Below, one piece after another: positions 17,654-36,247 of a stretch of 64,000 bases of DNA. The stretch's first letter is position 1, and each line of letters begins with the position of its first letter. The position numbers were made by a program, and so were the translations under genes. The stretch is taken from assembly GCF_027622875.1 (NCBI RefSeq), contig NZ_JAPZVP010000003.1:6627-70626 (forward strand), given 5' to 3'. The notes under the pieces are model-generated. The model was not told the DNA's origin and searched no databases. It worked only from the letters and a program-made list of their open reading frames with translations. This DNA comes from Glycomyces luteolus (GTDB lineage Bacteria; Actinomycetota; Actinomycetes; Mycobacteriales; Micromonosporaceae).

Positions 17654-19381
17654 ATGTTGCGCGCATTGCTTTCGGCTACTCGGTCTGCCAAACCTGACGA
17701 TCCGTGGGACCTCGCGGGGAAGGTGGCGCAGCTCGAAGCGGCTCACCGTGCGCACTTCGAGCAGCCCGACATGCTCCTCGTCCGCCGCGCCTACCGCATC
17801 GCCGAGCAGATGCACCGGGGCCAGGCCCGCCGCTCCGGCGAGCCCTACATCACCCACCCGATCGCGGTCTCCACCATCCTCGCCGAGCTCGGCGTCGACA
17901 CCGCCACCATCGCGGCCGGGCTCCTCCACGACACCGTCGAGGACACCAGCTACTCCCTCGAAGCCCTCCGCGGCGACTTCGGCGACGAGATCGCCGTCAT
18001 GGTCGACGGCGTCACCAAGCTCGACAAGATCCACCTCGGCTCCGCCGCCGAGGCCGAGACGTTCCGCAAGCTGGTGCTGACCGCCGGGCGCGACATCCGC
18101 GTCATGGTCATCAAGCTCGCCGACCGCCTCCACAACATGCGGACCATCAAGTTCAAGAAGCGCCCCAGCCAGATCCGCATCGCCGAGGCCACCAAGGACG
18201 TCCTCATCCCCCTCGCCGACCGCCTCGGCCTGTACGTCATCAAGCGCGAGCTCGAGGACATCGTCCTCGAGACCCTCGAACCCGAGATCTTCCAGCGCAT
18301 CCACGAGCACCTCGGCTCCGACTCCGACCGCAAGCGCCAGGTCGCCGTCATCGCCCCGCAGGTCCGCAAGGCGTTGCGCGAGTTCAAGGTCGCCGCGACC
18401 CTCCACGACCGGCCCCGGCACCCGTACTCGATCTACCGCGAGATGCAGAAGCACCCCGGCACCGGCCCCGCCGACCCGCCGCGCCTCGTGATCGTGGTCG
18501 AGGGCCCTGCCACCGACTGCTACGCCGCGCTCGGCGCGATCCACAAGCTCTGGAAACCCATCGGCGGCAAGTTCCGCGACCTGATCGCGGCCAAGAAGTT
18601 CAACCTCTACCAGTCGATCCACACCGCGGTCGTCGGTCCCGGCGGCACACCCGTCGAGTTCCTGATCCGCACCAAGGAGATGCACGAGACCGCCGAGGTC
18701 GGCATCGTCGCCGGCCTGCGCCAGTCGGGCGCCAACCCGGTCGAGATCCAACTCCCCTGGCTGCAACGGCTCCTCGACTGGCAGAACGAGATCGCCGACT
18801 CCGGCCAGTTCCTCGACTCGCTCCGCTGCGACCTCGCCGACCAGGACATCCTCGTCTTCACCCGCGACGGCGGCCAGCTCATGGTCCCCAAGGCCTCCAC
18901 CCCCGTCGACGTCGCGTACTGCTCCGGCCCGGCCACGGGCCACCGGCTCATCGCCGCCTACGTCAACGGCGAGATCGCCCCGCTCGCCCAGGCCCTGCGC
19001 GACGGCGACACCGTCGAGCTCGTCCTCACCAACGAACAGCCCTACGGCCCTTCGAAGCAGTGGCTCGACCACGCCAAGACCCCCGAAGCGCAGCTCCACA
19101 TCAACGATTGGTTCGGCTCGGTCGAGGACGTCGACTCGACCGGCGAGCTCCCGATCATCCCGATGCAGCGCTTCGAGGACGAACTCAAGGCCGGAAAGAA
19201 CCGCCTGTGGCGCTCCCTGATCGCCCGCGGGCGCGGTCTCGCGGGGGAACAACCGCTCCACGGCGTCGCGTCGTCTCTTGGCTTCCCAGACCTCGACTCG
19301 CTCTATCTCGCCCTCGCCCGCGAGAAGCTCGACCCCGACGAGCTCGCCGAGAAGCTCATCACCACGGTCGACCGCTTCTGA
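17654..19381 (+). CDS. RelA/SpoT homologue with intact hydrolase and degenerate synthetase
   Basis: RSH-family protein of 575 residues, shorter than full-length Rel (about 750-800). The HD hydrolase domain (about 45-170) keeps all expected residues: THP, LLHDTVED, and KLADRLHNMRT. The synthetase region (about 250-345) keeps YSIYREM, KFNLYQSIHT and VEFLIRT, but the strand that normally reads D-L-x-G-x-R and carries the magnesium-binding Asp reads PPRLVIVV. A TGS domain follows (about 395-460); the helical, zinc-finger and ACT domains are missing. The likely role is (p)ppGpp hydrolysis, with a bifunctional Rel elsewhere. ATG has GGAGG upstream. Confidence 0.85.
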   Translation: MLRALLSATRSAKPDDPWDLAGKVAQLEAAHRAHFEQPDMLLVRRAYRIAEQMHRGQARRSGEPYITHPIAVSTILAELGVDTATIAAGLLHDTVEDTSYSLEALRGDFGDEIAVMVDGVTKLDKIHLGSAAEAETFRKLVLTAGRDIRVMVIKLADRLHNMRTIKFKKRPSQIRIAEATKDVLIPLADRLGLYVIKRELEDIVLETLEPEIFQRIHEHLGSDSDRKRQVAVIAPQVRKALREFKVAATLHDRPRHPYSIYREMQKHPGTGPADPPRLVIVVEGPATDCYAALGAIHKLWKPIGGKFRDLIAAKKFNLYQSIHTAVVGPGGTPVEFLIRTKEMHETAEVGIVAGLRQSGANPVEIQLPWLQRLLDWQNEIADSGQFLDSLRCDLADQDILVFTRDGGQLMVPKASTPVDVAYCSGPATGHRLIAAYVNGEIAPLAQALRDGDTVELVLTNEQPYGPSKQWLDHAKTPEAQLHINDWFGSVEDVDSTGELPIIPMQRFEDELKAGKNRLWRSLIARGRGLAGEQPLHGVASSLGFPDLDSLYLALAREKLDPDELAEKLITTVDRF

Positions 19382-19700
19382 CCCGCTCCCGCGCCGGTCC
19401 ATATCGCAAGGCCGCCCATTCAAGCCCCGCCGATGATGCCGAATTAGCTACGTTCGTTCTCCGGCCCGCCCTTCTGGCAGTTCACCCTTCGATTCGCTGC
19501 CCAAGTGCGCTCCCGAGTACTGCTCATGCCCTCCCGAGCCAGTTCCCAGCGGAACAACCCACACGAGAGAGGTGGGGGCAGGGCTTGGGTCCCTCTCCGG
19601 CTTCCCAGCCCGATCGAGTCCAGGCTCAGGCAGGCAGCGACAACAAGGCAGGGGCAGGGCTTGGGTCCCTCTCCGGCTTCCCAGCCCGATCGGGCCCGGG
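19382..19700. other. Gene-free stretch after the RSH gene, with part of a tandem repeat
   Basis: No convincing coding sequence is seen on either strand. The right half holds most of the 76-base tandem repeat described separately. Composition is GC-rich like the core genome. Confidence 0.5.
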
Positions 19701-19728
19701 TCAGGCAGGCAGCGACAGATGGGTGTGG
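19577..19728. repeat. Two tandem copies of a 76-base repeat
   Basis: The units share GGGCTTGGGTCCCTCTCCGG, then CTTCCCAGCCCGATCG, then TCAGGCAGGCAGCGACA, offset by 76 bases (GGGCTTGGG at 19581 and 19657), with a few substitutions. It overlaps the 3-prime end of the left DUF222 fragment. Confidence 0.8.
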
Positions 19729-20250
19729 GCTGAGGTGGGTGGACTGTCTTGGGCATGCTGAGGGGCCCGGACCCGTTCGGGTTCGGGCTGCGCTGCTTGG
19801 CGTTGCGGCGCTTCCCCCAGCGGTCGCCCGCTGGGGCAGCCTAAGACCGGCACCGGGGATCGACTTCCGAACTGCTCTCGGCATTTGGCCTTGGCGGCCT
19901 TGATCGCCGCCAGGCACCGTTCCTGTTCGATGGCCTCGGCTCTGGAGTCGAGATCGAACTTCAAGTTCGGTGACCATTCCGACCGGTACAGCCCGGTCGG
20001 GAAGTAGTCGAAGTCATCAGCCCGGTGGTCGGCATCCAGATCGGCATCGGTGCGCCAGTCTGAGCACCCGCAGCCATTGCGGTCAGTGGTGTCATGGCCC
20101 TCATGGTGGGTGATGACCGCAGTGCCCGGGCCGGTCTTCTCGACCGTCCAGCCGGGAGTGTGGATGCGGCCGTGGTGGAAGCGGCACAGCAGGATCAGGT
20201 TCTCAGCGACGGTCGGTCCGCCGTCGGCCCATTCCGAGATGTGATGTACT
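19701..20250 (-). pseudogene. C-terminal fragment of a DUF222/HNH endonuclease gene
   Basis: Translating the reverse strand from about 20250 gives HHISEWADGGPT, then ENLILLCRFHHGRIHTPGW, the second part of the HNH nuclease motif of DUF222 (13E12-repeat) proteins, followed by a normal acidic tail to a stop at 19701. A stop codon and AT-rich sequence lie directly upstream of the HH, so the whole DUF222 part and the first Cys pair are missing. No start codon serves this fragment. Its missing half has a counterpart at 33051-34220, in the same orientation, on the other side of the Rhs island. Confidence 0.75.
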
Positions 20251-20795
20251 CATATATCGGAATATATCACTTGATTCTCCCTGGTGACGCCTAATCCATG
20301 ACGGAGTCGGTACGTCAAGATCAAGCGTGGCGCGATCGGCACCATTTACCAAGGGGCTCAAGGGCCTCATTTCTGGCGTTGGCGCGTCGAAGCCCGAGGT
20401 CGCCATGCTCTCTACTCAGTCTTGTTGCCGTGCGGCCAACCTGAGTTCGCCTCCGAAGCCGTGCCCGCTGTCGCGTGGGCGAGATCGACATGCTTGTTAT
20501 TGAACTGTGATGCTTCCTGATGTCGGGTGATGCTCGGGGCCGGTGGTCTCTGGTCGAGATCCGGATGATTGTGGCGCTGGCCTGGCCGTGCGCTGAAGCC
20601 GGAGGTCAACAGCGGTGGCTGTGGCCGGAAGCTTTGACGCGATTCGCACTGAGTGATCGATAGGGTTTGTCCTTTTTGGCATCGTTGTTGTAGGTGGACT
20701 CGGTCTTGACAGGACGGTTCGGCAACCGCTAACTTTCCGTACCGTTGCGGTCGGTGTTCGACTGCTCGCTGAGCCCACAACTGAAAGCGACCCCT
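20251..20795. other. Left edge of the Rhs island, non-coding
   Basis: The edge is marked by an AT-rich near-palindrome (ATATAT-CGGA-ATATAT type, 20252-20268) in otherwise GC-rich DNA. No supported gene lies in the rest; only the promoter near 20706-20735 is recognisable. Confidence 0.5.
20706..20735 (+). promoter_or_regulatory. Sigma-70 type promoter of the LamG/Rhs genes
   Basis: TTGACA at 20706-20711 and TAACTT at 20730-20735 with an 18-base spacer. It lies about 60 bases before the GTG at 20796 and would transcribe the LamG pseudogene and perhaps the Rhs gene. Confidence 0.6.
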
Positions 20796-23700
20796 GTGAA
20801 GCCCCATCTTCCCCCCATCGCGGTGTTGCGCACCCGTCGTCGGCCCGCGGCCGCAGCCCTTCCACGCAACCACTCCCGTCCCGGTGCGGTGCGTTGGAGG
20901 GTTCGCTTGTGGACTGCTGTGGCGGTCGCTGCCCTCGGTTCGGTGCTGTTGGCGGTCCCGGCTGCTGCCGAGGATGGTGTGGCGGCTGATTGCCTGATCG
21001 CGACCGGTGAGACTGCAGCACTGGAAGGTGAGCTTGCGGCGATCGAGCAGGCAGGGGCGTGCGGGCGCGAGGTCGAGGTGATTGACCAGCGCGATGAGTT
21101 CGGCACCGTGACGGCATTGCCTACTGGTGAGCTCAAAGCGGAAATCGGTGTGGAGCCGATCCAGGCGCAGGATGAGTCCGGGCAGTGGGCGCCGATCGAC
21201 ACCACGCTTGAGGTCGCCGAGGACGGGTCGATCCGGCCGGTGAACATCACCGAGGACTTGATCCTCTCGGCGGGTGGCACCGATCCTCTGGCCGCTGTGG
21301 GCTACGGAGCGGAAGGTGCGTTCAGCCTGTCGTGGCCGGGCGAGTTGCCGGTGCCGGTTCTTTCAGGGCCGCTGGCGGTCTACAACGAGGTGTTTGCCGG
21401 GGTGGACTAGGTGGTCGAGGCGACCGCGCAGGGCTTCCGGTACGACCTGGTCGTGGCTGATGCCGAGGCGGCGCGGAATCCGGATCTCGAGGCGATCGCG
21501 TTCGCGGTCGAGGCCGCGGGCGTTGAGGTAGCGGAAACTGCGACCGGTGAGGTCGAGGTCAAGGTCGCCGGTCAAGCTGAGATGGCGTCTGGGGAAGCGC
21601 TCATGTGGGAGGCGCCCTCGTCCCACGACGGGACCGAGACCGTCCCGGACCTGACCGCGATCACCGACACTCCCGCCGATCCGGATCAGGAAGTCGCACC
21701 GGTCGACGTGACTCTAGAGTCTGACGACTTGGTGCTGCGCCCGGACCTGGAGTTGCTGCGTGGCGCGGATACCCGCTACCCGGTGGTGATCGACCCGCAA
21801 TGGAACGGCGGCATCCAAGACAACCTGTGGGGATTGGTGAACACCAAGTACCCGGACTCGGTCTTCTACCGGGGCAAGAACACCTCGGGCGACTACTTCA
21901 TGTCCAACACAAGCACCTGGGGTAACGCCGGAGCCGGGCAGACCTGCGACTCCTGGAGCGGCCTGGACTGCTACTCCAGCACCTACGACATGCGGTCGAT
22001 GTTCCGGATGGACACCGACACCATCACGCAGAACGCCTACAAGATCCCCAATAAGGGCCTCTTCAAGATCGTCCAGCGGCACTCGGCGTCGTGCTCGAAC
22101 GGGACGGCGAGGGTCTACCGCACCGGCGGCTACAACTCGAACGACACCTGGGACACCCAGCCGGCGTGGCATGAGTCGGTAACGATCTCGAACGCCAACA
22201 ACGGGGCTACATGCGACGGCTCGGCGTACGTGTCGTTCAACGTCACCTCGATGGTCAAGATGGCCGACGACAACGAGTGGGCGAACCTCACCCTCGGCCT
22301 GCGAGCACCCGACGAATCGCCCTCACCAGAACTACTGGAGTGGAACCGCTTCGACTCCTACACGGCGGTGCTGGAGATCTACTACGACGTGATGCCCTAT
22401 GCGGTTTCGAACCGGAAACTCAACGGCGTCTTCTGCACGACCTCGGTGGAGAATGCGCCGTGGACGAACAGTCGCACTCCACGAATGAGCGCACTGTACC
22501 GGTCGCAGGACACCTCGCTCCTGTACCAGGCACGGCTGCGCTCCTCGACCCCGGTCGACGCCATCGTCTACGACTACACCTCTGCTGCGCCACTGACGGC
22601 CAACAAGGAGTACGGGAACACGCTGCCGACCAAGTACGCGCTGGGTGACGGGCTGTACTACTGGCTGGCCCGAAGCTTCTCCAGTACCAACAGTGACCTG
22701 GCCTCGGCCTGGTCGGCCCCCTGTCGGTTCAAAGTCGACGGGACGAAACCATTGACACCGACCGTCACCCCAGCGAGCGCGGCACCATATGAGGTCGACG
22801 GCACGCTCAACCTGACACTGAAATCGACCGACCCGACCGTGAACGGCTTCGTCTCCGGGATCGACCACTTCGAGTACTCCTGGCAGACCAACAGCTACAA
22901 CAAGGAAGTCGCTTCGACCGGGACGGCGACGATCACCAGAACCCTGTCGGCCGGAAGGCACGTGCTGTACGTCCGCTCGGTCGACAACGCCGGCAACGAA
23001 TCCGAACCGCGGACCTACACCTTCTTCGTCGGCCGGGACATTCTCACCACCCCGATGGCGACCTGGCGGTTCGAAGGCGACACCGCCGACGACACCGGCC
23101 ACCGCCACAACCTCGCGCTCGCCAGCGGCACCTCGATTGCCTACACCGCCGACCGCGACGGGCGGGCCAACGCGGCACTGGCACTAGACGGCTCGACCTG
23201 CCTGACGGGCACAGGATCCGATCATGCGCACGGACGCGGCCTATTCGCTGTCGGCATGGGTGCGCATGGACGCGGTCGACGGGGCCACCGAGCGGCCGAT
23301 CACGCAGGTGAACGATTCGCACTCGGCCTTCCAAGTCTGGTACTCGGCGACCGCCGACCTCTGGTATTTCTCGGTGTTGGACGCGAACAAGAACTGGAAC
23401 AGCATCGGCGCGGCCCCGACCGTCGCGCTTGGCTCGTGGGAGCACATCCGGGCGGTCTACGACCCGGACAAGAACGTGATCCGCCTCTACCTCGGCGGCA
23501 ACCTGGTCGGGGAGAAGACCATCAACTTCACGCCCTGGAACGCCGACAAGGTCTTCAGCCTCGGATGCCTGATGAACGCCGGGACGCCGCAGTACCACGT
23601 CTCGGGCGCGATCGACCAGGTCGGCCTCTGGCAGGGCGTGTTGAGCCAAGCCCAAATCAAAGCCGCGATGACCGACCTGCCCACCGCGAGCGTCCAGGCG

Positions 23701-25002
23701 CAGTGGACTTTCCGCAGCGACGGCACCGACGACTCCGGTCACGGACGGGACTTGAATACCGACGGCATTACCGTCGGCGCCGACCCGTACAACCGGCCCT
23801 CCGGAGCGATCGAACTCAACGGCGAGACCTGCCTCGAATACCCCGAATCTGTCGTGGCCACTGACCGGTCGTTCACCGTCGCTTCCTGGGTCAACATCGA
23901 AGACCCGGCTCGCTTGGAGACGATCATGTCCATCGCGGGCGAGAACAACATGGGATTGCGCCTGCGGCACTTGGAGAACGGGGTCTTCCAGTTCCGGCTG
24001 GTCTCTGCCGACGCCGCCGAAGGCGCAGGCGCAACAGTTCGGCAGCGTTCTTCCACCACGACCGCTGAAGCGGGACAGTGGTACCACATCGCCGGCGTGT
24101 ACGACGCGTCCGTAGGACAAATGCACCTGTATGTCAACGGTGTCCTTGAAGGATCTCTGACCGTCGGAAAGCAATGGCAAGCGACCGGGGCCACGCTCAT
24201 CGGCTGCGCGGGCACCGAATCCGACGCCACCCGCGGCGAGTACTTCACCGGCTCACTTCACGACGTCAGGTTCTGGCGCGGTGCCGTCGAATCCTACGAG
24301 CTCGCCGACATGATGGCCGCCCCACCTGCCGAGACTGCAGCGCGGTGGGATTTCAACAATTTTGACGAGCCGCTCACGCCGAGGGCAGATGTCACCGGCA
24401 ACGGCAACGATCTCGCGATAACCGGCACCGAGTTCTACGACCCTGTCGGATACAACAAGGCCCCGGACAATGCGCTGCTCTTCGAGGGCACCAGTCATGC
24501 CCGCACCACCGGACCGGTGATCGCGACCGACGAGTCGTTCACGATCGCGACATGGATGCGGGCCGACGATGTCACTCGCGATGGCGTCGCAGTGAGCATC
24601 ACCGGCGGCAGCCGCAGCACCATCGTCGTCAAGTACTCCGTCGCGAACGCCCGTTGGGAATTCGCCGCCCCGCCAACCGCCGAGCACCCATGGCACGTGG
24701 CAGGTGCCGCAGCTACGCCGTCAGATACCCATATGGGGTACCTCTTTCTCGTCGGGGTGTATGACCTGCCCTCCAACGAATTGCGGCTGTACATCGACGG
24801 TGCCCCCGTAGCGACCGCTACGGACGTCGTGATGCCCTCCTCGACCGGCTCGGTGGTGATCGGTGCTGAGGGCAACGCTGATGGCACCATCCGCGATGGG
24901 CTGATCGGCGCGGTCGACGACACCATAATCTGGCAAGGCGCCCTCGAATGCGCGACCATCGCCAGCATCTTCTTGCCGACCCTTCCCGAGGAGGTGTGTT
25001 GA
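20796..25002 (+). pseudogene. Secreted DNRLRE/LamG-domain protein, broken by an amber codon and a frameshift
   Basis: Once a protein of about 1400 residues. It has a signal peptide (basic start, then AVAVAALGSVLLAVPAAAE), a DNRLRE-type middle section (VVIDPQWNG...SMFRMDTDT) and three LamG jelly-roll domains (each opening with a WRF/WTF/WDF strand and carrying a SAWV/ASWV/ATWM motif). An in-frame TAG at 21408-21410 interrupts AGVD-stop-VVEATAQGF. A one-base insertion near 23217 (GGATCCG, where GGACCG would give TGPIMRTD, like TGPVIATD in a later LamG repeat) shifts the frame. Such genes usually sit directly upstream of Rhs toxins in streptomycetes. The start (GTG at 20796) is uncertain; no strong ribosome site. 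Confidence 0.85.
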
Positions 25003-25004
25003 CC

Positions 25005-28000
25005 GTGACCAGACGCCTCCCGATCACGCCTGACCCGACCCTGCTTCGGAGCCCCTACGTGCACACCTCCCCGCGGCACCGCATCCGCCTCCTGCTTGCC
25101 ATGACCGCCGCCGCGGTGGTGACCATGGCCGGGCTGACTACCGGCCCGGCTTGGGCTGCTGACTTCCAGCGCGGTGCTCAGACGTTCGCCTCTAATCCCG
25201 TCTCTAGCGTGGGCGCGGCTGAGTCGGCATTCGATGACAATGCCGCCGACTGGGCCGGTGGCACCACCGAGACGGGGGAAGGCGCGGGGCAGTGGACGGC
25301 GACGGACTTGTCTTCGGCAGGGTCATGGTCGCAGGGAGGCTCATCCGGAGCGTATTCGTACTCCTACGCGATGCGCGTGCCACCGGCCGCCGGTCCGACC
25401 CCGTCGTTGGCGCTGTCGTATTCTTCGGCCGCGCATGATGGGTTGACATCCGGCACGAACAACCAGGCGTCGTGGATCGGGGATGGCTGGGGATACTCGC
25501 CCGGGTTCATCGAACGGTCCTACTCGGGCTGCGCCTCTGAACTTGAACAGGACGGCAATAACGGCACCGACCAGACCGGCGACCTGTGCTGGGACGGGGG
25601 CTCGCCCTCGGTCACCATGGCTTTGGGCGGCATCAACACCGCACTGGTCCTGGACGATGATTCCGGGGTTTGGCACGCTGCTGGCGATGCGAACTGGCAC
25701 ATCGAGAAGCTCGGCACTCCGGCATCGGCTACTGCGGCGACTTCGGAGCGATGGAAGGTCACCGGGACCGACGGCACGCAGTACTTCTTCGCTGCCGACC
25801 CGGCTACGACCGGATCTCGGTGGACGGTCCCGGTGTTCGGCAACCACTCCGGCGAGGCCTGCTACAAATCAGGTGACTTCAAGGGATCTCGCTGCACCCA
25901 GGCGTATCGGTGGATGCTTGACAAGGTCGTCGACCTCAACGGGAACATGACCCGCTACGTCTACGGCACCGAAACCGGCTACTACTCACCGGCCGCTGAC
26001 AGCACGAAGGACGCGGTCGCGTTCACCCGTTCGGGCTGGCTCAAGCGCATCGAGTACGGGCTGCGATCCGACGATCCTGCAGTGTCGGCGACCGGCCGTG
26101 TCCAACTTGTCGCCGGCGACCGGTGCCTGTCGGACTGCTACGACACTTCAGGCGATCCAAAGGAAAGCAAGTGGGCCGACACGCCTTGGGAGCTGAACTG
26201 CAAGGCCGGGACCGGTTGCGAGCAGTACGCGCCGGTGTTCTTCTCCACCAAGCGACTCACTGAAGTCCAAGCTGAAGTCTGGAACACCGGGGCAGGTGTG
26301 TTCGACACCGTCGACACCTGGAAGCTCACCCACGAGTTCAAGGACTACGGGGACAAGTCCCAGGTAGTGATGTGGCTGGCCGCGATCCGGCACACCGGGC
26401 ACGTGGGCGACGGGGAACAGTCCACGCCTGCGGTTGAATTCGGCGGCACGTTCATGCCCAACCGGGTCGAGGACGGCTCGGCCGACCCGATGATCCAACG
26501 ACCCCGCCTGACCTCGATCAAGAACGAGACCGGCGGTGTCACCACGGTCAACTACTCCGCACCCGACTGCGGCGTCGGTGATCTGCCGACTGTCGGCGAG
26601 TCGAACACCCAGCGGTGCTACCCGGCCAAATGGGTCCCCGAAGGTACCTACAACGCTGTTGACGCCTACTTCCATAAGTACGTGGTCACCTCGGTTGCCG
26701 AAACCGACACCACTGCCGGTGCTGACACGGCCTGGACCTTTTACGAGTACTCCACCTCTGGCGGTGGCACCAATGTTCTCTGGGCCTGGAACGACTCCGA
26801 GTTCACTCCTGACGACCTCCGCACCTACAACCAATGGCGCGGCTACACGCAGGTGACCACCCTCGTCGGCGACCCCGCCGACCCTGAACCGCAACTGCGA
26901 ACCGCCTCCCGGTACTACCGGGGCATGGACGGCGAACCGCTCCCGGGCGGCACCGAGCGCGACGTCACGCTCACCAGCACCCGGGGCGACACCGTTGCCG
27001 ACCATGAAGCGCTAGCGGGACAGGCCTGGGAGCAGATCACCTACGACAACACCACGGTCGTCGGTTCCACCATCACCCGGTACTGGACGAAGAACACCGC
27101 CATTCGCGCCTACGACGGCGGTGAGCTCAAAGCCTGGATGACCGGTCCAAATCAAACCATGGCGCGCACCAAACTCTCCGACACGTCCTGGCAGACCGTC
27201 CGTGCCGACACCACCTATGACGCCCGCGGCCGTGTGGAAACCCTCAGCAACCACGGTGACATCAGCACATCCGGTGACGAGATGTGCACTACAACTGAGT
27301 ACGTCGACAACACCGACAAATGGATCCTCAAGGCCCCCTCGAGGATCGAGACTGTCGCCGTCACCTGCGACCAGCCGGTGTCCAGGCCCGACGATGTCTT
27401 GAGCGACGTCCGCGCTTACTACGATGGGCACGATTTCGGTGCGGTGCCCACGTACGCCCGGATGACGAAGTCCGAGACCATCGACGGCTGGGACGCGGGC
27501 CCGAAGTACGCGACCCTCGCCGAATCCACTTACGACTCGCTCGGCCGCGAGAAAACCGCGACCGACGCGCTCGGCGATGTCACCACGACCGCCTACACCC
27601 CAACGGGCGCCGGTCCGGTCACTGCCGTGTCGACGACCAACCCGCTCGGCCACATCGACGCGGTCACCATCAGCCCTGCCTGGGGGTCCGTAACGTCGGC
27701 GACCAGCGCTGCCGGTCGCAAGACCACGCTCACCTACGACGCGCTCGGTCGTGCGACAGCGGTCTGGTATCCCGGTCAGGACGCGCCGACCGAGGTCCCG
27801 AACCTGAAATTCTCTTACACCGTCTCCGACACGGCCCCCAGCACCACCACCACTGAGACGATGATCTGGGACCAGTCCTATCTGACCGAGATCAAGATCT
27901 TCGACGCGCTCATGCGGCCCCGTCAGACCCAGGCCGAGACTTACGGCGGGCGGTTGATCAACCAGAGTGAGTACAACTCCTACGGTCAGGTCGTCTACTC

Positions 28001-31000
28001 TTCCGGCGCGAACTTCAATAACGATTCCGGGCCCACCGGTGACCTCGTGCGTATCTCCCGTTCCAACGACGTCGCCCGCACCGAATACGTCTACGACACC
28101 GCCGGACGCGTCACGGCCGAGGTCTTCGTCGTCAAGGACGAGGAGCAATGGCGCACCACCACCGCTTACGGTGGCAACGACGACTACTGGCAGACGACCG
28201 TCACACCGCCTGAAGGGGCGTCAGCCTCTGGCACGCTCACCGACGCGCGCGGCCTCGTCGTCGAGGCCCTCCAGTACCACGGCAACACCCCGGCAGGTGA
28301 GCCGGACCGGACGCATTACACCTACACGCCTGCAGGTCTGCTGGAATCCGTGACGGACCCGGCCGGACAGCAGTGGAGCTTCGGATACGACCTGCGCGGC
28401 CGCCAAATCACCGCCGACGATCCCGACACCGGGCACACCAGCATGACCTACGACGACGCTGGACAACTGGTCACCACCACCGCCAATGCCGGGACGAGCG
28501 CCGAGACCACACTGTCGTACGAGTACGACGCCCTGGGCCGCAAGACGGCGAAGTGGGAAGGGGCAGTTGACGGCGACAAGCTCCTCTCAGAGTGGACGTA
28601 CGATACCGCCTCTGCATACGGGAAGGGCGCACTGCACAAGTCGATTAACTACGTCGACAACCAAGCCTGGACCACCGAGTACCGCCGCTACGACATCACT
28701 GGGCAACCCACTCAAGTCCTGACCACGCTGCCGTCGGCCGCGGGCAGCCTCGCCGGCTCCTACTACGAGGCGTTCACCTACCACCCCGACGGCAGCATGA
28801 AGACCTCGGTCGCCAGTGCCACCGCCGGACTTACGTCCGAGACCATGACCTACGGCTACGACGCCATGGGGCAGCCCTCGCGGGTCGCAGGCAACAGCTC
28901 TACCTTTGGCGCGGCCCAGATCTACGTCGACGAGGCCCTCTACTCCCCGTACGGGCAACTGCTGCAGCTGCGCCTCGGAGACCCTGCCGACGTCGGCGGC
29001 ACTTCCGGACAAGCGTGGCAGACCTGGATTTACGAGGAAGGCACCGGACGGCTCGCGGAGTTCTACTTCGACAAAGACACCGCCGGTGAATTCGATGGCA
29101 CCAACTACGGCATCGCCGCCCTCTCCTACGAATACGACCAGGCCGGCAAGATCACCTCGATCACCGACCAGCCCGTGCACAACGCCGACGCGCTCCAACC
29201 CGAAACCCAGTGCTTCCAGTACGACTACCTCAACCGTCTCACCGAAGCATGGGCGCAATCCGGAGCCGACGCCTGCGCCACAACCCCGACCGAAGAGGCC
29301 GTCGGCGGACCCGGCGCATACTGGTCCTCCTACCAGTACGACCTCTCCGGCAACCGCACCGCCGAGACTCGATCGACCGTCGCGGGGCGCTTCACCGACA
29401 CGTACACCTACGAGACCGACAGCCACGCCCTCACCTCGATAGCCACCACCGAGAACGGCGCAGACCGCACCAACTACACCTACAACGAAACCGGCTACGC
29501 GACCTCCATATCCCGCGCCGGCGATCTCTCAACCCTGGAATGGAACAGCTCCGGCCGCCTTAAGGCTGTCAAAAATGGCGAGAAAACCACGAGCTTCTAT
29601 GACGATGCCGAGGGCAACCGGCTCGCCCGCAAGGACCCCGATGGCAGCATCACCGCCTGGGTCGCCGGGTACGAGCTGCACTACGACGCCACCGCCAACA
29701 CCAAACAGGCCACCCGCTACTACACCCACGGCGGCAACGTCATCGCCCAGCGCGTCGGCATCGGCGACATCCTCTTCGTCGCAGGCGACCACCACGGCAC
29801 CGGACAATGGATCGTCAACGGAGGCACCCTCACTGCTACCGTGCGCCGCTTCGACCCCTTCGGCAACGAACGAGGTCTCACCCAAGGCACCTGGCCCGAC
29901 GACCGCGGCTTCATCGGCGGCATCGACAACACCACCACCGGCCTGACCACCCTCGGCGCCAGAGAATACGACCCCACCACCGGCCGATTCGTCTCCGTCG
30001 ACCCCATCGCTGACTACGCCAATCCGCAACAGCTCAACGGCTACGCATACTCCAACAACAACCCCGTCAATCTCTCTGACCCCTCCGGGCTCTGCGCAAC
30101 CGGGCCCAGTGTTGACCCCGACACCTGGCAAGGCCCTTGTGCAGGAACCGGGCCGAGCACCGGCGGCAGCGAGCCGAGCGGAGGCCCCGCCAGCGACCCC
30201 GTCGCTGTCGCGGTAAGTGACGGCGACACGATCTGGGGAGAGCAATACGACGGGGATGAAGGGGGATGCGTCTATGTGCTCCAAGGAGCAGTGGGCGTTC
30301 CGTGCGACATGTGGGAAGGCGACCTCCAAGACCTTGTAAACGAGGTTGAGGAGTATCTATACGAAATTGGGGAGAACCCCGACCAATACACCGAAACCTT
30401 TGACCCAACTCAAATTGCTTGGGCAACTACTGATCTCTGCCATGGCGGGTCCGATTTCAATTCGATGGTTGCCGACAACTGTCAGATGGAGTACCTCGAA
30501 ACCCTCGACGACCAACGAATGATGCTCGACCAGGCATGGGCAACCGACGCCGCCGAACGCAACCCGATGGCAGGCGCGCTTATCGCAGACCTCTCGGGGG
30601 GCATCTTGCAGGCGGGGAGCGCATCGTTCACGGCCCCTTGGATGAAAGGCACTATCGGTCTCAGGTCTTACTTCCGAAACTCCTGCAAATCTTTTGAGGC
30701 CGGAACACTGGTCGTAATGGCCGATGGGACTGCTAAGCCAATTGAGGAGATCCTGCCGGGCGAGCAGGTGCGTTCCATTGATTTGGAGTCTGGCGAAGCG
30801 ACTAGTGCAACAGTCTCGGATACATTCACTACACCCGAGCAACTCCGAAACATTGTCAACCTAGGTTTCGATCATGACGGTGACGGAGAGGCTGAAAGCG
30901 ATATTTCGTCCACTGCAGGCCATGCTTTCTGGGCAATAGATTCGAGTGATACTTCCAGGCTGCTGTCTTCAGGTACTTGGATGCTGGCGAGCGAGCTATC

Positions 31001-31445
31001 AGCAGGATCGTTGATCAAATCAGTCAGCAGCGGTTGGGTGCAGACGGTCGAAGTCGGCCAATCTATCGAGTCGGTCGCCACGCATAATCTCGCAGTTCCG
31101 AATACCCACAACTATCTTGTCCGCGTAGGAGGCAGCGATGTTCTTACTCATAACTGCAGCGCGGATAGTATTCGTTCAGCTTTCGGCAAGTTGGCCAAGG
31201 GGGACTCCAAGTACACCAGATTGGTTGACAGCGAGGATGAAATGAGGGCGTTCTTTGATAAATATGTCTGCACCTGCAACGGCGCCGTGAAGAATGCGAC
31301 GTACAAAGACGGAACAATTCAAGAATGGCTTCTTACCGATGGCACAGTTGTAAAATGGAAAGACTGGTCGGGTTCGGGAGGGGTTACAATCGAATTTCAG
31401 TACGGAGGAACAGGTAGGTGGAGGAAGGTGCATCTTGCCCCATAA
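25005..31445 (+). CDS. Rhs/YD-repeat polymorphic toxin with Hint domain and C-terminal toxin
   Basis: Secreted toxin-delivery protein of 2146 residues. In order: signal peptide (LLLAMTAAAVVTMAG...AWAAD), SpvB-like N-terminal region, long YD-repeat shell, Rhs core motif (YDPTTGRFVSVDPI...NLSDPSGL, about 1655-1695), a spacer, a Hint autoprotease (SCKSFEAGTLVVMADG to VLTHNC, about 1892-2050), and a toxin tip of about 95 residues with two Cys (YVCTCNG), DGTVVKWKDW and a C-terminal KVHLAP. The tip family is not recognised; a BECR-type RNase is only a guess. The GTG at 25005 follows GAGGAGG; TTG at 24999 is an alternative. Base composition drops in GC from about 30.3 kb, the variable end. Confidence 0.9.
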   Translation: MTRRLPITPDPTLLRSPYVHTSPRHRIRLLLAMTAAAVVTMAGLTTGPAWAADFQRGAQTFASNPVSSVGAAESAFDDNAADWAGGTTETGEGAGQWTATDLSSAGSWSQGGSSGAYSYSYAMRVPPAAGPTPSLALSYSSAAHDGLTSGTNNQASWIGDGWGYSPGFIERSYSGCASELEQDGNNGTDQTGDLCWDGGSPSVTMALGGINTALVLDDDSGVWHAAGDANWHIEKLGTPASATAATSERWKVTGTDGTQYFFAADPATTGSRWTVPVFGNHSGEACYKSGDFKGSRCTQAYRWMLDKVVDLNGNMTRYVYGTETGYYSPAADSTKDAVAFTRSGWLKRIEYGLRSDDPAVSATGRVQLVAGDRCLSDCYDTSGDPKESKWADTPWELNCKAGTGCEQYAPVFFSTKRLTEVQAEVWNTGAGVFDTVDTWKLTHEFKDYGDKSQVVMWLAAIRHTGHVGDGEQSTPAVEFGGTFMPNRVEDGSADPMIQRPRLTSIKNETGGVTTVNYSAPDCGVGDLPTVGESNTQRCYPAKWVPEGTYNAVDAYFHKYVVTSVAETDTTAGADTAWTFYEYSTSGGGTNVLWAWNDSEFTPDDLRTYNQWRGYTQVTTLVGDPADPEPQLRTASRYYRGMDGEPLPGGTERDVTLTSTRGDTVADHEALAGQAWEQITYDNTTVVGSTITRYWTKNTAIRAYDGGELKAWMTGPNQTMARTKLSDTSWQTVRADTTYDARGRVETLSNHGDISTSGDEMCTTTEYVDNTDKWILKAPSRIETVAVTCDQPVSRPDDVLSDVRAYYDGHDFGAVPTYARMTKSETIDGWDAGPKYATLAESTYDSLGREKTATDALGDVTTTAYTPTGAGPVTAVSTTNPLGHIDAVTISPAWGSVTSATSAAGRKTTLTYDALGRATAVWYPGQDAPTEVPNLKFSYTVSDTAPSTTTTETMIWDQSYLTEIKIFDALMRPRQTQAETYGGRLINQSEYNSYGQVVYSSGANFNNDSGPTGDLVRISRSNDVARTEYVYDTAGRVTAEVFVVKDEEQWRTTTAYGGNDDYWQTTVTPPEGASASGTLTDARGLVVEALQYHGNTPAGEPDRTHYTYTPAGLLESVTDPAGQQWSFGYDLRGRQITADDPDTGHTSMTYDDAGQLVTTTANAGTSAETTLSYEYDALGRKTAKWEGAVDGDKLLSEWTYDTASAYGKGALHKSINYVDNQAWTTEYRRYDITGQPTQVLTTLPSAAGSLAGSYYEAFTYHPDGSMKTSVASATAGLTSETMTYGYDAMGQPSRVAGNSSTFGAAQIYVDEALYSPYGQLLQLRLGDPADVGGTSGQAWQTWIYEEGTGRLAEFYFDKDTAGEFDGTNYGIAALSYEYDQAGKITSITDQPVHNADALQPETQCFQYDYLNRLTEAWAQSGADACATTPTEEAVGGPGAYWSSYQYDLSGNRTAETRSTVAGRFTDTYTYETDSHALTSIATTENGADRTNYTYNETGYATSISRAGDLSTLEWNSSGRLKAVKNGEKTTSFYDDAEGNRLARKDPDGSITAWVAGYELHYDATANTKQATRYYTHGGNVIAQRVGIGDILFVAGDHHGTGQWIVNGGTLTATVRRFDPFGNERGLTQGTWPDDRGFIGGIDNTTTGLTTLGAREYDPTTGRFVSVDPIADYANPQQLNGYAYSNNNPVNLSDPSGLCATGPSVDPDTWQGPCAGTGPSTGGSEPSGGPASDPVAVAVSDGDTIWGEQYDGDEGGCVYVLQGAVGVPCDMWEGDLQDLVNEVEEYLYEIGENPDQYTETFDPTQIAWATTDLCHGGSDFNSMVADNCQMEYLETLDDQRMMLDQAWATDAAERNPMAGALIADLSGGILQAGSASFTAPWMKGTIGLRSYFRNSCKSFEAGTLVVMADGTAKPIEEILPGEQVRSIDLESGEATSATVSDTFTTPEQLRNIVNLGFDHDGDGEAESDISSTAGHAFWAIDSSDTSRLLSSGTWMLASELSAGSLIKSVSSGWVQTVEVGQSIESVATHNLAVPNTHNYLVRVGGSDVLTHNCSADSIRSAFGKLAKGDSKYTRLVDSEDEMRAFFDKYVCTCNGAVKNATYKDGTIQEWLLTDGTVVKWKDWSGSGGVTIEFQYGGTGRWRKVHLAP

Positions 31446-32346
31446 GGCTAACGACAAATGGGTTATCCGAGGCGTGCTTCAAAGCGCCGCGGCCGACTGG
31501 ACATCGAGCTATGAGATCCTCGGTATTGCGGAGGAGGCTGCGCGGAGAAAAGATGAAATCGAAGATCCAACCGTTCTTTCAAAGACCAACGATTCCTCTG
31601 ACCATGGCAAAATTTCTAGTGCATATGGACATTGGGATGCTGAGATTATTTCTCAAGTTTTCAATGTCACACGCACCATGCTCAGCCAGGGCCTTGTAAA
31701 TGTAGGCGTAACTGCACCATTTGTCACATGGCCTGGAAATCTGGAAGACTGGCTACATGCCTTGAATGAAATTGAGCTCTCGCTCGCTTCCTGCCATGCG
31801 CATGATGATTGGTTTGACCTGGAAATTACGGAGAAGGGAATCTTGGCGTATGACAATCGCATGCTCATGATTGCATCAAAGTTGATACTTTCGGAGGGTG
31901 TAAATCGAGAAACCACCTTGATGTCAACTGAAGTGTCATATCGAAATACGGTTTACGGCTTCGACGACGATGACCGGAGCATGCTGCATCAACGTTTGTC
32001 TGAGCAGATCGTGAATGATCCAACTCAAATACTGGACTCGATAGTAGAATGTCGCGATCGCTGGTGGGAGGATAATCGTAAGCAGACGATTCGTCGTTCT
32101 ATTGCTTGCCTAAATCATTTGATCTCCCTTGGCCTGATTTATGTTGCCAATGGTGGGAGCGTGGTTTCCGTGATCGAGTTTCCAGAATCGTCTACACAGA
32201 ACGACTTGCTGCAATGGCAAGCTAACGTCTCAAGCGAAACTAAGATCCAGCTATCTGATCTTGCAAGACATATTGGTCTAGAATACTTGAGAGAGCCACT
32301 AAAGGATCGAGTGAATTTCATGACCTCGGAATGGTCCATTCACTGA
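31435..32346 (+). CDS. Candidate immunity protein of the Rhs toxin
   Basis: Soluble protein of 303 residues with no recognised domain. It overlaps the toxin stop by 11 bases (TTG start at 31435), so it is translated with the toxin. Notable segments are HAHDDWFDLEITEKG, a Trp-rich CRDRWWEDNRKQ and a hydrophobic LNHLISLGLIYV stretch. It is markedly AT-richer than neighbouring genes and uses codons such as ATA, AAA and TTG that the core genes avoid. Position directly after a toxin tip is the usual place for the matching immunity gene. No homology is claimed. Confidence 0.6.
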   Translation: MPHKANDKWVIRGVLQSAAADWTSSYEILGIAEEAARRKDEIEDPTVLSKTNDSSDHGKISSAYGHWDAEIISQVFNVTRTMLSQGLVNVGVTAPFVTWPGNLEDWLHALNEIELSLASCHAHDDWFDLEITEKGILAYDNRMLMIASKLILSEGVNRETTLMSTEVSYRNTVYGFDDDDRSMLHQRLSEQIVNDPTQILDSIVECRDRWWEDNRKQTIRRSIACLNHLISLGLIYVANGGSVVSVIEFPESSTQNDLLQWQANVSSETKIQLSDLARHIGLEYLREPLKDRVNFMTSEWSIH

Positions 32347-33050
32347 GCCTTTTTCAAACTCGCCTGCGAGATCATCCGTCGCGGCGGGCACGCCCGACGC
32401 TGGGCATTCCTCGCTACGGGCATCTTCCTGGCCGGCGATGCGCTCGTGCTGATATCTCGGGTTGACCGACGTCGCCGAATATCAGTTCGGGCTACTGGGC
32501 TCCCTCGGCGCCGTGGCGAACCTCGTCGCCTTTGCCCTGCTGTGGCCTATTCGCTCAGAAAATTGTGCGATTGCTAAACCGGCGGCCGAACTCAGTCGTT
32601 CCCGGACATTATCGGTTCCCGCCTGCAGCGAGATAGGCGTGCAGGATCGGACCGTGCCGATTACGTGCCGACGTTTTCCCGACGGTCGGTGGGTTCGCGG
32701 CATTGTCGCAGGTAGACGGATACATGTGACGAAATGGTGCACCCGCTTTGGGAGCGGAGAGTTGATTGCCTTTATGGATTCACGGCTGCACCAGCGTAAT
32801 TGAGGCACCTCTTGACGGCGCTGGTGCTGACGACGTGATGTCAGGTCGGTGCGAATTGGATCGTGCCGGCGATCGTAAAGACGCGGATGATGGCGTCTCG
32901 TTGGTCGAGGGAGAGGCGTTCGGCCGCTGGTTGCGATTGCTGACATCCAACGAGCTGACATCAACAGATCTCCGACAAGAACCCGCAACCATGCTGGGCC
33001 GGATGTAGCTTTTGGCCTGAGTTATGTCACACATCACAATATGTAGGGGC
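32347..33050. other. Right end of the island, decayed sequence
   Basis: Apart from the membrane-protein remnant at its start, no frame shows recognisable protein sequence. GC content returns to genome level. AT-rich bases (33020-33045) precede the DUF222 fragment. Confidence 0.45.
32354..32560 (+). pseudogene. Remnant of a membrane protein gene
   Basis: Two adjoining frames read like one hydrophobic protein. The first gives FKLACEIIRRGGHARRW, AFLATGIFLAGDALVLIS. After a one-base shift near 32462 the other gives LTDVAEYQFGLLG, then ANLVAFALLWPI. No start, stop or ribosome site supports an intact gene. The parent family is not recognised. Confidence 0.35.
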
Positions 33051-34220
33051 TCACGGGCCATGATAGGCTATGACCTGGGAAAACGTGGGCCGTAAATCCG
33101 TGACCTTAGACCAGTGCCGGAGGTGGTGGGCCTCGGTCCAGGCAACCGGCCGGTCGCAGCCGTGCCAGGCGCAACCATCAGGCTGCTCGAGCTCGAGCTT
33201 CCGGCGGAGCGCGGTGTTGGGGAGGCGCTCGGCGCGGCCCAGTTCGACCGCTTCGCCGGTGCGGTAGTTGAAGACGGCGGGGATGATGGCGGCTTCGCAG
33301 GCGAGGAGGCGGGCCCGGGCGACGCTGATCGGCTGGCCCTCGAGGAGGGGCAGGCGGCCGGTGTCCTTGCCCTGCAGCGTCTCGATGTCCACCGTCAAAT
33401 TGAGGGTGGCGGTGTGCCCGTGCCGGGTCGATGCCTGCGGGGAGGCACCGTAGCCGGCAAGGAGCTGGTGCAGAGCCTCGGCGTGGCGGTTCGCCTGCGG
33501 GGGCAGCACCCCGTCGGTGTCGGTCTCGTCCTGGCGGGGCGGGGGGCAGGCGGTCTTGAGGTACTTGTCGAGGAGCCGCCCGGTCTCATCGGAGAGTTCC
33601 CCGGAGAGCGACCAGAGGCCGTTGCCCTGTTCGCCCAGTTCGATCCACTGCAGGGACTGCTCGCCGAGGCTGTCGAGGAGTTCGGATTCGTCGGCCAGGT
33701 TGGCGGCCAGTTCTTCGAGGTGGCGTTGCAGGTCCTTGAAGGGCGCGTGGGTGCAGTACTGGGCGATGAGCGCTTCGGGTGTCTCGCACGTGACGGAGGC
33801 GTCGAAGGGCGAGGCGACCGGGGCCTTGAAGGGGGTGCGGGCGAACAGGCGCATCGCCGGGGTCTTCTCGAGCTGGCGGACAGCGTAGGCGACCTGGTCG
33901 ATCCGGGCTTCCCCTGTCGTTGCCGCCGCTGCCAGGAGGGGGAACGTGCTTGCGAGGCGGGCGATGGCCGCAATGGCGCCTGCGGTGTTGAACGTGAAGT
34001 CGAACTGGGAGACCAGGAGATCGCGGAGGGCGGAGAAGCCGAACGCGGAGCGGTGGAGGTTCTGCTCTTTCATCGCGATCACCGTCGACAGGACCTGGGC
34101 GTGCTGGGTGTTGATGAGGGCGGCGGCCTCGTCGAGGGTGGAGCGGATGGCTGCGGCCTGGGAGGGCCGGTCGGAGGCCAAGGGAGGGAAGGGGTTCGGG
34201 GTGGTGGTGCAGTGGCTCAT
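33051..34220 (-). pseudogene. DUF222 gene truncated inside its HNH motif
   Basis: From the ATG at 34220 (GAAGGA site upstream) about 370 residues match the DUF222 (13E12-repeat) layout: helical N-terminal part (DEAAALINTQHAQVLSTV), central DUF222 core (LSDETGRLLDKYLKTA...NRHAEALHQLL), then the first half of an HNH nuclease with the Cys pair and His-His (CAWHGCDRPVAWTEAHHLRHW). The expected GGPT...NLVLLCRxHH half is replaced by unrelated sequence that runs to a chance stop at 33051. As the nuclease motif is cut, the product should be inactive. It matches the complementary fragment at 19701-20250. Confidence 0.8.
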
Positions 34221-34660
34221 GGGTCCTTCGCCTCCGTTCCGCATTCTCGAATGATCTGGCTGTTTTCGGTTTCTTGTTCGGTAGTTCAATAATGACAGAC
34301 CAGGATGGCGGTGTCATCACCCAATGGAGTGAACATTCCATGAGGGACACTCACAGGGAGTGCCCGACCTGCCTGGGCGGCAACGCGAACCGACGAATCC
34401 TCCGGCCTTCGCCGCTCGCGCCGACACGCTGCCAGGCGGCCACAGGGCACGCCCCGACCGACTACCGCCCCTTTGTCGCTGCCCGCTTGAACTCCGCACG
34501 GCTCGCACCTCGCAGCCGAATCGAGTCCCCGCCCAACCCACCACCGCTTCGTCGCTGCCCGATCCAAATCCGGCCTCACACCGCGCCCGCATAGGCATCA
34601 CACGCACACGCAAAGCAAAGCGGGGCCGCACCTTCCGGTGCGGCCCCGCTTTGCAATCGC
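34221..34660. other. Gene-free stretch between DUF222 fragment and qcrB
   Basis: No supported coding sequence. GTCGCTGCCCG occurs twice (near 34473 and 34552), suggesting a degenerate repeat. The right end holds the qcrB terminator. Confidence 0.5.
34615..34654. terminator. Strong terminator downstream of qcrB
   Basis: A perfect 18-bp stem with loop TTCC lies just past the qcrB stop. On the reverse strand the stem ends in T-rich sequence (TTTGCTTTGC). It ends the ctaE-qcrCAB transcript. Confidence 0.85.
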
Positions 34661-36247
34661 TTAGTGCTTGCCCGACTCGATCTCGTCGCGCCGCTCGGCG
34701 CGGCCGTCCTCCGACGGCTCCTCGATCGACTTGAAGAAGCCCTTGTCGGCGGGCGGCAGCGCGCCGATGCGGTTCATCTTCTTCGGCACCACCCAGCCGT
34801 TGTACTCCAGCTCGGTGTGGCCGTGCTCGTCCGGCTCGGCCAGCGGCTGGTGCACCTCGTAGAAGCGGCCGTTCGGGTCGCGCATCAGGATGCCCGTCTC
34901 CAGGCCGTGCGCGAGGACCTCGCGGTCGTGCTGCTGCAGGCCCAGGCAGATCCGGTACGTCACGTAGTACGCGATGATCGGCATGACCACGAGTCCGATG
35001 CGGCCCGCCCAGGTCATGGCGTTCAGGCTGATGTCGAACTGCTCGGCGAACACGTCGTTGCCGCCGGAGATCACGCCGATGATCCAGAAGACCACGACCA
35101 TGACGCCGAGGCTGGTGCGGCCCGCGTTGTCGCGGGGACGCTGCAGCAGGTTGTGGTGCCCGCGGTCCTTCGTGAACCGCCGCTCCAGCGCCGGGTACAG
35201 CAGCGGCAGCATGACGGAGAGGCCCATGCCCACGATGCCCGGCCAGAACACCGGCGGCAGCGTGAAGTACGGCGGGATGCGCAGTTCCCACGCGGGGAAC
35301 AGGCGGATCAGGCCGTCCAGGTACATGACGTAGAAGTCGGGCTGCGAGGCCGAGGAGACGACCGAGACCTCGTAGGGGCCGAAGAGCCAGATCGGGTTGA
35401 TCTGGAACAGGCCCGCCATCGCCCCGAGGACGCCCCAGATGAACAGCATGAAGCCGACCTGCTTCATGACGTAGTTCGGGAACATCCGGAAGCCGACCAC
35501 GTTGTGCTCGGTGCGGCCCGGGCCGGGCCACTGCGTGTGCTTCTGCGCGAATACGAGCCCGATGTGGACCGTGATCAGCGCCAGGATCAGCAGCGGGAAC
35601 ACGAAGACGTGGATGATGTAGAGCATCGAGATCACGCTGGTGCCCGGGAACTGGCCGCCGAACAGCGCCGCCGAGGCCCAGGGACCGATGAACGGGATCG
35701 ACTCGGTCATGCCCTCCATGATGCGGAGGCCGGTGCCCGAGAGGCCGTCGTCCGGCAGCGAGTAGCCGAAGAAGCCCTCGAAGAAGCCGAGCCAGAACAG
35801 CACGATGCCGATCATCCAGTTCGTCTCGCGCGGCGCGCGGAACGCGCCGGTGAAGAAGATCCGGAGCATGTGGACCAGGATCGAGGCCATGAACAGCAGC
35901 GTCGACCAGTGGTGCAGCTGGCGCATGAAGAGGCCGCCGCGCACCTCGAACGAGAGGTCCAGGGCCGAGTGGTAGGCCTGCGACATCTCGACGCCCTGCA
36001 GCGGCACGTACACGCCGTTGTAGGTCACCTCGACCATCGACGGCTCGAAGAACAGCGCGAGGAAGGTGCCCGAGAGCAGCAGCAGGATGAACGAGAACAG
36101 CGCGATCTCGCCCAGGAGGAAGGACCAGTGGTCCGGGAAGACCTTGTTGAACAGGATCCGGGCCGGGAGCGCGAGCTTGAACCGGTCGTCGAGCTCGCCG
36201 CCTGCCTTGGTCAGCAGGCTGTCGCTCGTGCCTTTGCGGCGTTTCAC
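34661..36247 (-). CDS. qcrB: Cytochrome bc1 complex cytochrome b subunit
   Basis: Menaquinol-oxidising cytochrome b of the actinobacterial bcc-aa3 supercomplex, in the plasma membrane. The 528 residues contain eight or more hydrophobic segments. Heme-ligand His pairs lie in FMRQLHHWSTLLFMASILVHMLR (two, about residues 110-128) and in LYIIHVFVFPLLILALITVHIG. A PEW-type quinol-site motif is replaced by NPIWLFGPYE. There is a long C-terminal cytoplasmic tail, as in mycobacterial QcrB. The GTG start overlaps the qcrA stop (GTGA). Confidence 0.96.
   Translation of the reverse strand: MKRRKGTSDSLLTKAGGELDDRFKLALPARILFNKVFPDHWSFLLGEIALFSFILLLLSGTFLALFFEPSMVEVTYNGVYVPLQGVEMSQAYHSALDLSFEVRGGLFMRQLHHWSTLLFMASILVHMLRIFFTGAFRAPRETNWMIGIVLFWLGFFEGFFGYSLPDDGLSGTGLRIMEGMTESIPFIGPWASAALFGGQFPGTSVISMLYIIHVFVFPLLILALITVHIGLVFAQKHTQWPGPGRTEHNVVGFRMFPNYVMKQVGFMLFIWGVLGAMAGLFQINPIWLFGPYEVSVVSSASQPDFYVMYLDGLIRLFPAWELRIPPYFTLPPVFWPGIVGMGLSVMLPLLYPALERRFTKDRGHHNLLQRPRDNAGRTSLGVMVVVFWIIGVISGGNDVFAEQFDISLNAMTWAGRIGLVVMPIIAYYVTYRICLGLQQHDREVLAHGLETGILMRDPNGRFYEVHQPLAEPDEHGHTELEYNGWVVPKKMNRIGALPPADKGFFKSIEEPSEDGRAERRDEIESGKH

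Follow-up and report, generated by a model that had tools for sequence, protein, structure and literature searches.

A DUF222/HNH gene of Glycomyces split by an Rhs toxin island, probably through site-specific integration at a tryptophan codon

Between a RelA/SpoT-HD family gene (relA) and a qcrB-like cytochrome b gene of Glycomyces luteolus lies a gene of the DUF222/HNH (13E12-type) family in two pieces, separated by an island of 12,879 bp that carries an Rhs polymorphic-toxin locus. The stretch in which we describe it, here called the window, comprises 64,000 nucleotides (G000:C23:6627-70626) of a 5.7-Mb genome (G000), and is compared with further Glycomyces genomes, given below as G numbers with their contigs as C numbers. 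We propose, with a probability of about 0.7, that the island entered by site-specific integration at a TGG codon, probably by way of a large serine recombinase (LSR). Here, we describe the two junctions and the conserved island ends before weighing the candidate recombinase, the history of the locus in relatives and a second cut point in the same gene family.

A DUF222 gene cut at one tryptophan codon

The features that define the junctions are as follows.

19701..20231, minus strand: DUF222/HNH C-terminal part, from the TGG codon at 20229-20231
20232..20281, no strand: left island end, about 50 bp conserved with G016, holding most of an apparent HHISEW motif
33061..33110, no strand: right island end, about 50 bp common to G016, G013 and two G003 sites
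33111..34220, minus strand: DUF222 N-terminal part, to the TGG codon at 33111-33113

The open reading frame (ORF) at the right edge, 34289-33051 on the minus strand, is DUF222 by its match to PF02720 (47.3 bits, cut-off 24.4), a match that identifies the target of the island as a DUF222 gene. It reads ...AWTEAHHLRHW up to the Trp codon, and continues with SKVTDLRPTF and on to a stop. At the left edge the minus strand reads, from 20246, HHISEWADGGPTVAENLILLCRFHHGRIH and on through to the stop at 19701, with a stop codon immediately upstream; the C-terminal part itself begins at the Trp of ...EWADGGPT (20231-19701, minus strand). A single uninterrupted DUF222 protein of G017 covers both pieces, the right one corresponding to its residues 26-393 and the left one to residues 378-507. 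The overlap of the two halves is TGG only, the chromosome-side similarity continuing as DUF222, and the island is what lies between the two TGG codons (20232-33110).

The same arrangement is found at a different locus on contig C29 of G016, where a DUF222 N-terminal part (641-1726) and C-terminal part (14483-15151) enclose an island of 12,756 bp that has both window-type junctions together and encodes an Rhs protein of 2133 residues with a companion protein of 1394 residues. This island adjoins genes that by eye resemble a sugar transporter, and the relA and qcrB matches of G016 itself lie about 92 bp apart. A preliminary description of the window had noted that the two pieces stand in the order of one interrupted gene, and interruption of a single DUF222/HNH gene is borne out by the G017 protein that covers both pieces and by the recurrence of both junctions in G016; the latter genome also provides the further toxin island between DUF222 fragments that the description had suggested looking for.

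Conserved island ends

Similarity between the window and G016 extends into the island for about 50 bp at either end, beyond which it drops to chance level. Counted outward from TGG in bins of 10 bp, the left end has 8, 9, 10, 7 and 8 identical positions of 10 (the first bin containing TGG itself), followed by 6, 6, 4, 2, 5, 1 and 3, and the right end has 8, 10, 8, 8 and 9, followed by 5, 6, 1, 2, 2, 5 and 3. Five DUF222 cuts, distributed over four Glycomyces genomes, have the right end: those of the window, G016, G013, G003:C26 and G003:C6. In the last three its agreement with the window over 50 bp is 8-9 of 10 (G013 and G003:C26) or 7-9 of 10 (G003:C6) before falling to 1-5 of 10. As a pattern with up to three mismatches it was found at four places in 22 genomes, all of them DUF222 (the G003:C6 end, which retains just a short DUF222 match, is too diverged for the pattern), and the left-end pattern was found under the same threshold at two, the window and G016; both reversed controls gave 0. 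A 63-base right-end query of 397 genomes of the order returned only G000 and G013, a weak negative because G003 and G016 are not among the ten Glycomyces genomes in its result table. Among viral contigs there were no matches to the right end, or to the end of the second cut point described below, and two exact 19-base matches to the left end. Island-side DNA next to the right ends of G003:C26 and G003:C6 encodes a NACHT protein (Pfam); the rest, judged by eye from the ORFs, includes no clear prophage.

The preliminary description had also noted that each piece carries its own HHxxxW motif, from which it took the pieces to derive from two paralogues. The motif is indeed present in both, but most of the left copy belongs to the island, as indicated by the match of its upstream DNA to the G016 island end and by the codon that precedes the Trp. 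That codon is CAC or CAT in 42 of 44 distinct uninterrupted DUF222 contexts and GAA or GAG in none, while the Rhs left junctions have GAA in the window and GAG in G016. The contexts are distinct 72-base stretches from a motif-pattern search of DUF222 loci (L051, L052 and L093-L095 being omitted as repeats), and they take in a few copies that are truncated, stop-bearing or cut elsewhere, such as L063 and L104 (cut at the second point); three loci, G000_C13, G005_C34a and G004_C9, yielded no context under the pattern. Since GAA and GAG are absent before W in these contexts, the left HHISEW is best read as belonging to the island as far as the Trp codon, and a second paralogue becomes unnecessary.

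These observations bear directly on a model in which each half stems from a different DUF222 paralogue and the island arrived by homologous recombination between copies. DUF222 is multi-copy, with many copies grouping by genome, and the motif stands in both halves, as this model would have it; the halves nonetheless overlap by one TGG, about 50 bp upstream of the left W match the G016 island end, and DUF222 is cut at that codon in four genomes. A two-paralogue origin was rejected on the HHxxxW codon counts, and we consider it very improbable. A transposon with a 3-bp target duplication would similarly leave TGG on both sides, but it would have to strike one particular codon of one gene family every time, the inverted repeats of the Rhs-island ends are not above chance, the ten scanned island ORFs contain no transposase family and neither end is found outside DUF222 in the 22 genomes (up to three mismatches), all of which makes such an origin scarcely credible. 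The combination that is present, of fixed ends, a fixed target and a conservative join, with ends that stop at TGG and 50-bp arms at several loci, is one expected of an LSR-integrated element.

A candidate serine integrase

In the proposed mechanism, the relA-qcrB gap would have held a single DUF222/13E12-type gene, which was cut when an island with the Rhs polymorphic-toxin locus integrated site-specifically at TGG, the Trp codon of the HHxxxW HNH motif of this gene. The two island ends of about 50 bp would then be the element halves of two attachment sites, and the recombinase would probably be an LSR. A candidate is found in G. xiaoerkulensis (G003:C32), where an LSR matching PF07508, PF13408 and, within the ORF as delimited, the end of PF00239 adjoins a DUF222 C-terminal part that opens with the same His-Trp pair (TGG at L040 position 2846). 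The start of this 395-residue ORF is about 440 bp from the DUF222 part, and its stop-free frame about 90 bp. It is related to phage serine integrases, of which those of Arthrobacter phages give the best matches, and aligns with them over 87% of its 395 residues, although identity is about 31% among the matches listed (31% in the best) and every match lies below 60%. The end at G003:C32 is an inverted repeat of the right ends of the window (18/24), G016 (20/24) and G003:C26 (19/24). The null means are 9.4-9.9, and in each comparison the score was reached in 5 of 5000 random draws from DNA that included the sites themselves. On the strength of this similarity we read the right end as a putative half-site of the G003:C32 integrase type, and infer that an LSR of that kind moved the Rhs island.

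Several observations weigh against this reading. No recombinase was found in the island itself (Pfam on ten island ORFs, and a PF07508 search of the genome whose sole match is at G000:C7), and therefore the island is either non-autonomous and moved in trans or a relic without its former integrase. The single LSR of G000 belongs to another group and G016 has none by PF07508, a family sought in six of the 22 genomes with nine matches, among which the G003:C32 group comprises only two G003 LSRs, those of C32 and C26, which are 44% identical. In the genome collection there are 11 loci of related LSRs, and a DUF222 match lies nearby in two, L093 (G003:C32 itself) and L095 (G. lechevalierae, at the second point), the nine others including G003:C26, G. 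terrestris and G. albidus; with 2 of 11 near DUF222, the LSR group taken together shows no specificity for this family. In G003 the integrase-side junction and the right junctions are on different contigs, so that no complete LSR-bearing element for the TGG codon is seen. The left and right ends of the Rhs islands agree as inverted repeats at 8-11 of 24 positions, which is chance level and unlike the G003:C32 end. Full-length Rhs companions of at least 49% identity occur at five loci (the window's being in two pieces), only two of which are in DUF222; as the other three (G018, G017:C2 and G021) are not near a listed DUF222 match, the Rhs locus is not bound to the DUF222 site. Finally, pairing of the window N-half with the G005 copy at the same locus was rejected by the approximately unbiased (AU) test (p 0.0001), and orthology of the two was discarded on that result, a mismatch that homogenisation of copies may explain.

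The relA-qcrB gap and the history of the copies

The genes that flank the split DUF222 gene are these.

17654..19381, plus strand: RelA/SpoT-HD family gene (relA), left flank; Pfam HD_4, RelA_SpoT and TGS
34661..36247, minus strand: qcrB-like cytochrome b gene, right flank; Pfam Cytochrom_B_N_2, with QcrA_N adjoining

These two genes are neighbours in each of the 19 other Glycomyces genomes whose assemblies place them on one contig. Between the flank matches, some of which end before the gene does, there are 55-203 bp in 15 of the 19, and more in G002 (1424 bp), G006 (2113 bp), G017 (2590 bp) and G009 (3856 bp). Both G009 and G017 have an uninterrupted DUF222 gene in the gap, in the same orientation, and the window halves match its adjoining parts. 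In G005, the closest relative (qcrB 98%, relA 96%), DUF222 adjoins relA and the contigs break before qcrB; in G001, relA and qcrB are likewise on two contigs. From this survey, an uninterrupted DUF222 gene occupies the gap in some relatives and the gene is absent altogether in most. The intact DUF222 gene that the preliminary description had anticipated at the empty site is thereby found in G009 and G017, and in G005 beside relA on a broken contig. The gaps of G002 (L003) and G006 (L009) hold other, unrelated ORFs, named by eye as glycoside-hydrolase-like in the former and as lipase-like and START-like in the latter. The relA-qcrB gap is an insertion-tolerant spot. Short repeats with a 76-bp spacing, partly mutually inverted, lie on either side of the DUF222 locus of the window (19570-19723 and 34464-34572), and the right-hand one also matches L005 beside the DUF222 gene of that stretch.

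DUF222 matches number eight in G000 and 100 in the 22 genomes. Most copies cluster by genome in G005, G007 and G009, with exceptions such as G005_C16 and G005_C34a, a grouping that suggests conversion among copies or recent amplification. Among eight in-genome pairs compared, those of G005 and G007 can be aligned along some 1.75-2.3 kb and have similar limits (a contig end being involved in two), while the similarity of a G000 pair is confined to 1.46 kb; the copies resemble a dispersed module, at most about 2.3 kb long and reaching from about -1400 to +900 relative to the TGG codon, that is alike within the genome in G005 and G007.

It is conceivable that there was one ancestral site-specific integration, after which homologous recombination through its DUF222 halves carried the DUF222-Rhs-DUF222 composite to further DUF222 loci. 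Within-genome copies are alike and the left end is found in the window and G016 alone, both of which would suit such a history, and the grouping of the window halves with those of G016, though unsupported, is not rejected (N-part, AU p 0.093; C-part, 0.439). In the N-part tree, however, the window half stands alone and G016 groups with G000_C2 (80/96), and the non-coding island DNA past the 50-bp ends is barely alignable, as for reused sites rather than shared descent. We regard spread of a composite as unlikely; repeated integration at the TGG codon would be the history favoured by the conserved arms. The preliminary proposal that recombination between DUF222 copies delivered or moved the island consequently divides in two, failing as the cause of the insertion in view of the single-codon join and the conserved ends, and surviving as a later movement of the composite that the AU tests leave unrejected.

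The Rhs locus

The cargo of the window island consists of three genes or gene remnants.

20796..24969, plus strand: Rhs companion (Laminin_G_3, weak Ig-like), broken by internal stops and in two frames; open in G016 and G018
24948..31445, plus strand: Rhs/YD-repeat protein of 2165 residues, open; weak PT-HINT match and variable tip
31435..32346, plus strand: ORF of 303 residues overlapping the end of rhs, with a low third-codon-position GC (GC3) of 0.49; immunity candidate by position only

The Rhs protein resembles the Rhs/YD-repeat polymorphic toxins with a pretoxin HINT in having RHS repeats and an Rhs core (PF05593, TIGR01643 and TIGR03696), a putative HINT region and an unrelated tip after a body that is 68% identical to that of G016 (residues 46-1720). 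Identity is 47% over residues 1911-2069, the HINT region, and the tips beyond are without a match, giving the variable C-terminal tip expected of such toxins. It differs from them in that its pretoxin HINT match, at 24.2 bits, is below the curated cut-off of 27.7 (the G016 protein scoring 47.8 bits), and in that the immunity candidate has no family match; nor does this ORF have a match in the G016 stretch L030. G018 has a close Rhs locus (L034/L037, G018:C12:224.7-240 kb) whose DNA is 87% identical to the window along 4.7 kb. Neither L034 nor L037 contains a DUF222 match, and about 3 kb downstream of the locus lies an LSR from a different group.

A second cut point in DUF222

By direct reading of the sequences, DUF222 genes are also cut about 20 codons upstream of the Trp codon (residue ~364 as against 384 of the G017 protein), in G000:C12, G006:C46, G007:C2 and, in changed form, G013:C25, with another conserved end. 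This end, of the CCCGTAGG type, is at 4809 of L023 (G000:C12:322500-333000), 1922 and 15710 of L104 (G007:C2), 2351 of L107 and about 375 of L035; the pattern with its gap one base shorter matched only G013:C25:5715 in the genus. In G. lechevalierae (G007:C2) the halves flank about 13.8 kb, an LSR match begins about 420 bp from one junction, and the first ~20 bases of the two element ends are alike in inverted orientation. A second-point-type end also lies beside the LSR of G. terrestris, with no DUF222 match there, and no DUF222 C-terminal part was found within about 25 kb of the cut at G000:C12. Just inside the second-point end, the ORFs L023:3813-4679 (288 residues) and L104:14662-15582 (306 residues) have similar starts by eye, the latter with no Pfam family match. 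The second docking point strengthens the general pattern of DUF222 as a landing site.

DUF222 as a landing site for integrative elements

The primary paper on the integration of phiRv1 is reportedly that of Bibb and Hatfull (2002), and we take the REP13E12 genes to be members of the DUF222 family. According to a published review (PMC9317374), phiRv1 is a prophage-like element in a REP13E12 repeat of Mycobacterium tuberculosis that has a serine recombinase. The window island likewise sits in a repeated 13E12-family gene, and the analogy with phiRv1/REP13E12 drawn in the preliminary description was the right one. Unlike phiRv1, the island has an Rhs cargo, with no integrase found and no phage family among its ten ORFs (Pfam). 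Clusters of LSRs converging on a single target gene are described in PMC10083194, and the situation here is similar in that different integrases target one gene family; the term DUF222 has 0 occurrences in the main text of that paper. No paper pairing DUF222 with a serine recombinase, or with HNH and attB, appeared in the literature searched, which leaves most subscription papers outside it.

More tentatively, and with less than even odds, DUF222/HNH genes might form a genus-wide docking park, in which two or more serine-integrase specificities recognise two points of the HNH region, about 20 codons from each other. Cargo islands without an integrase (Rhs toxins and others), bounded by the same right half-site, could then be moved in trans from copy to copy by the integrases of resident elements. 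The findings extend the phiRv1/REP13E12 case to a recurrent pattern, in which a multi-copy DUF222 gene serves as landing site for integrative elements, among them toxin islands that yielded no integrase. They provide a candidate pair of integrase and attachment site, and a way to find toxin islands, which is to look inside split DUF222 genes.

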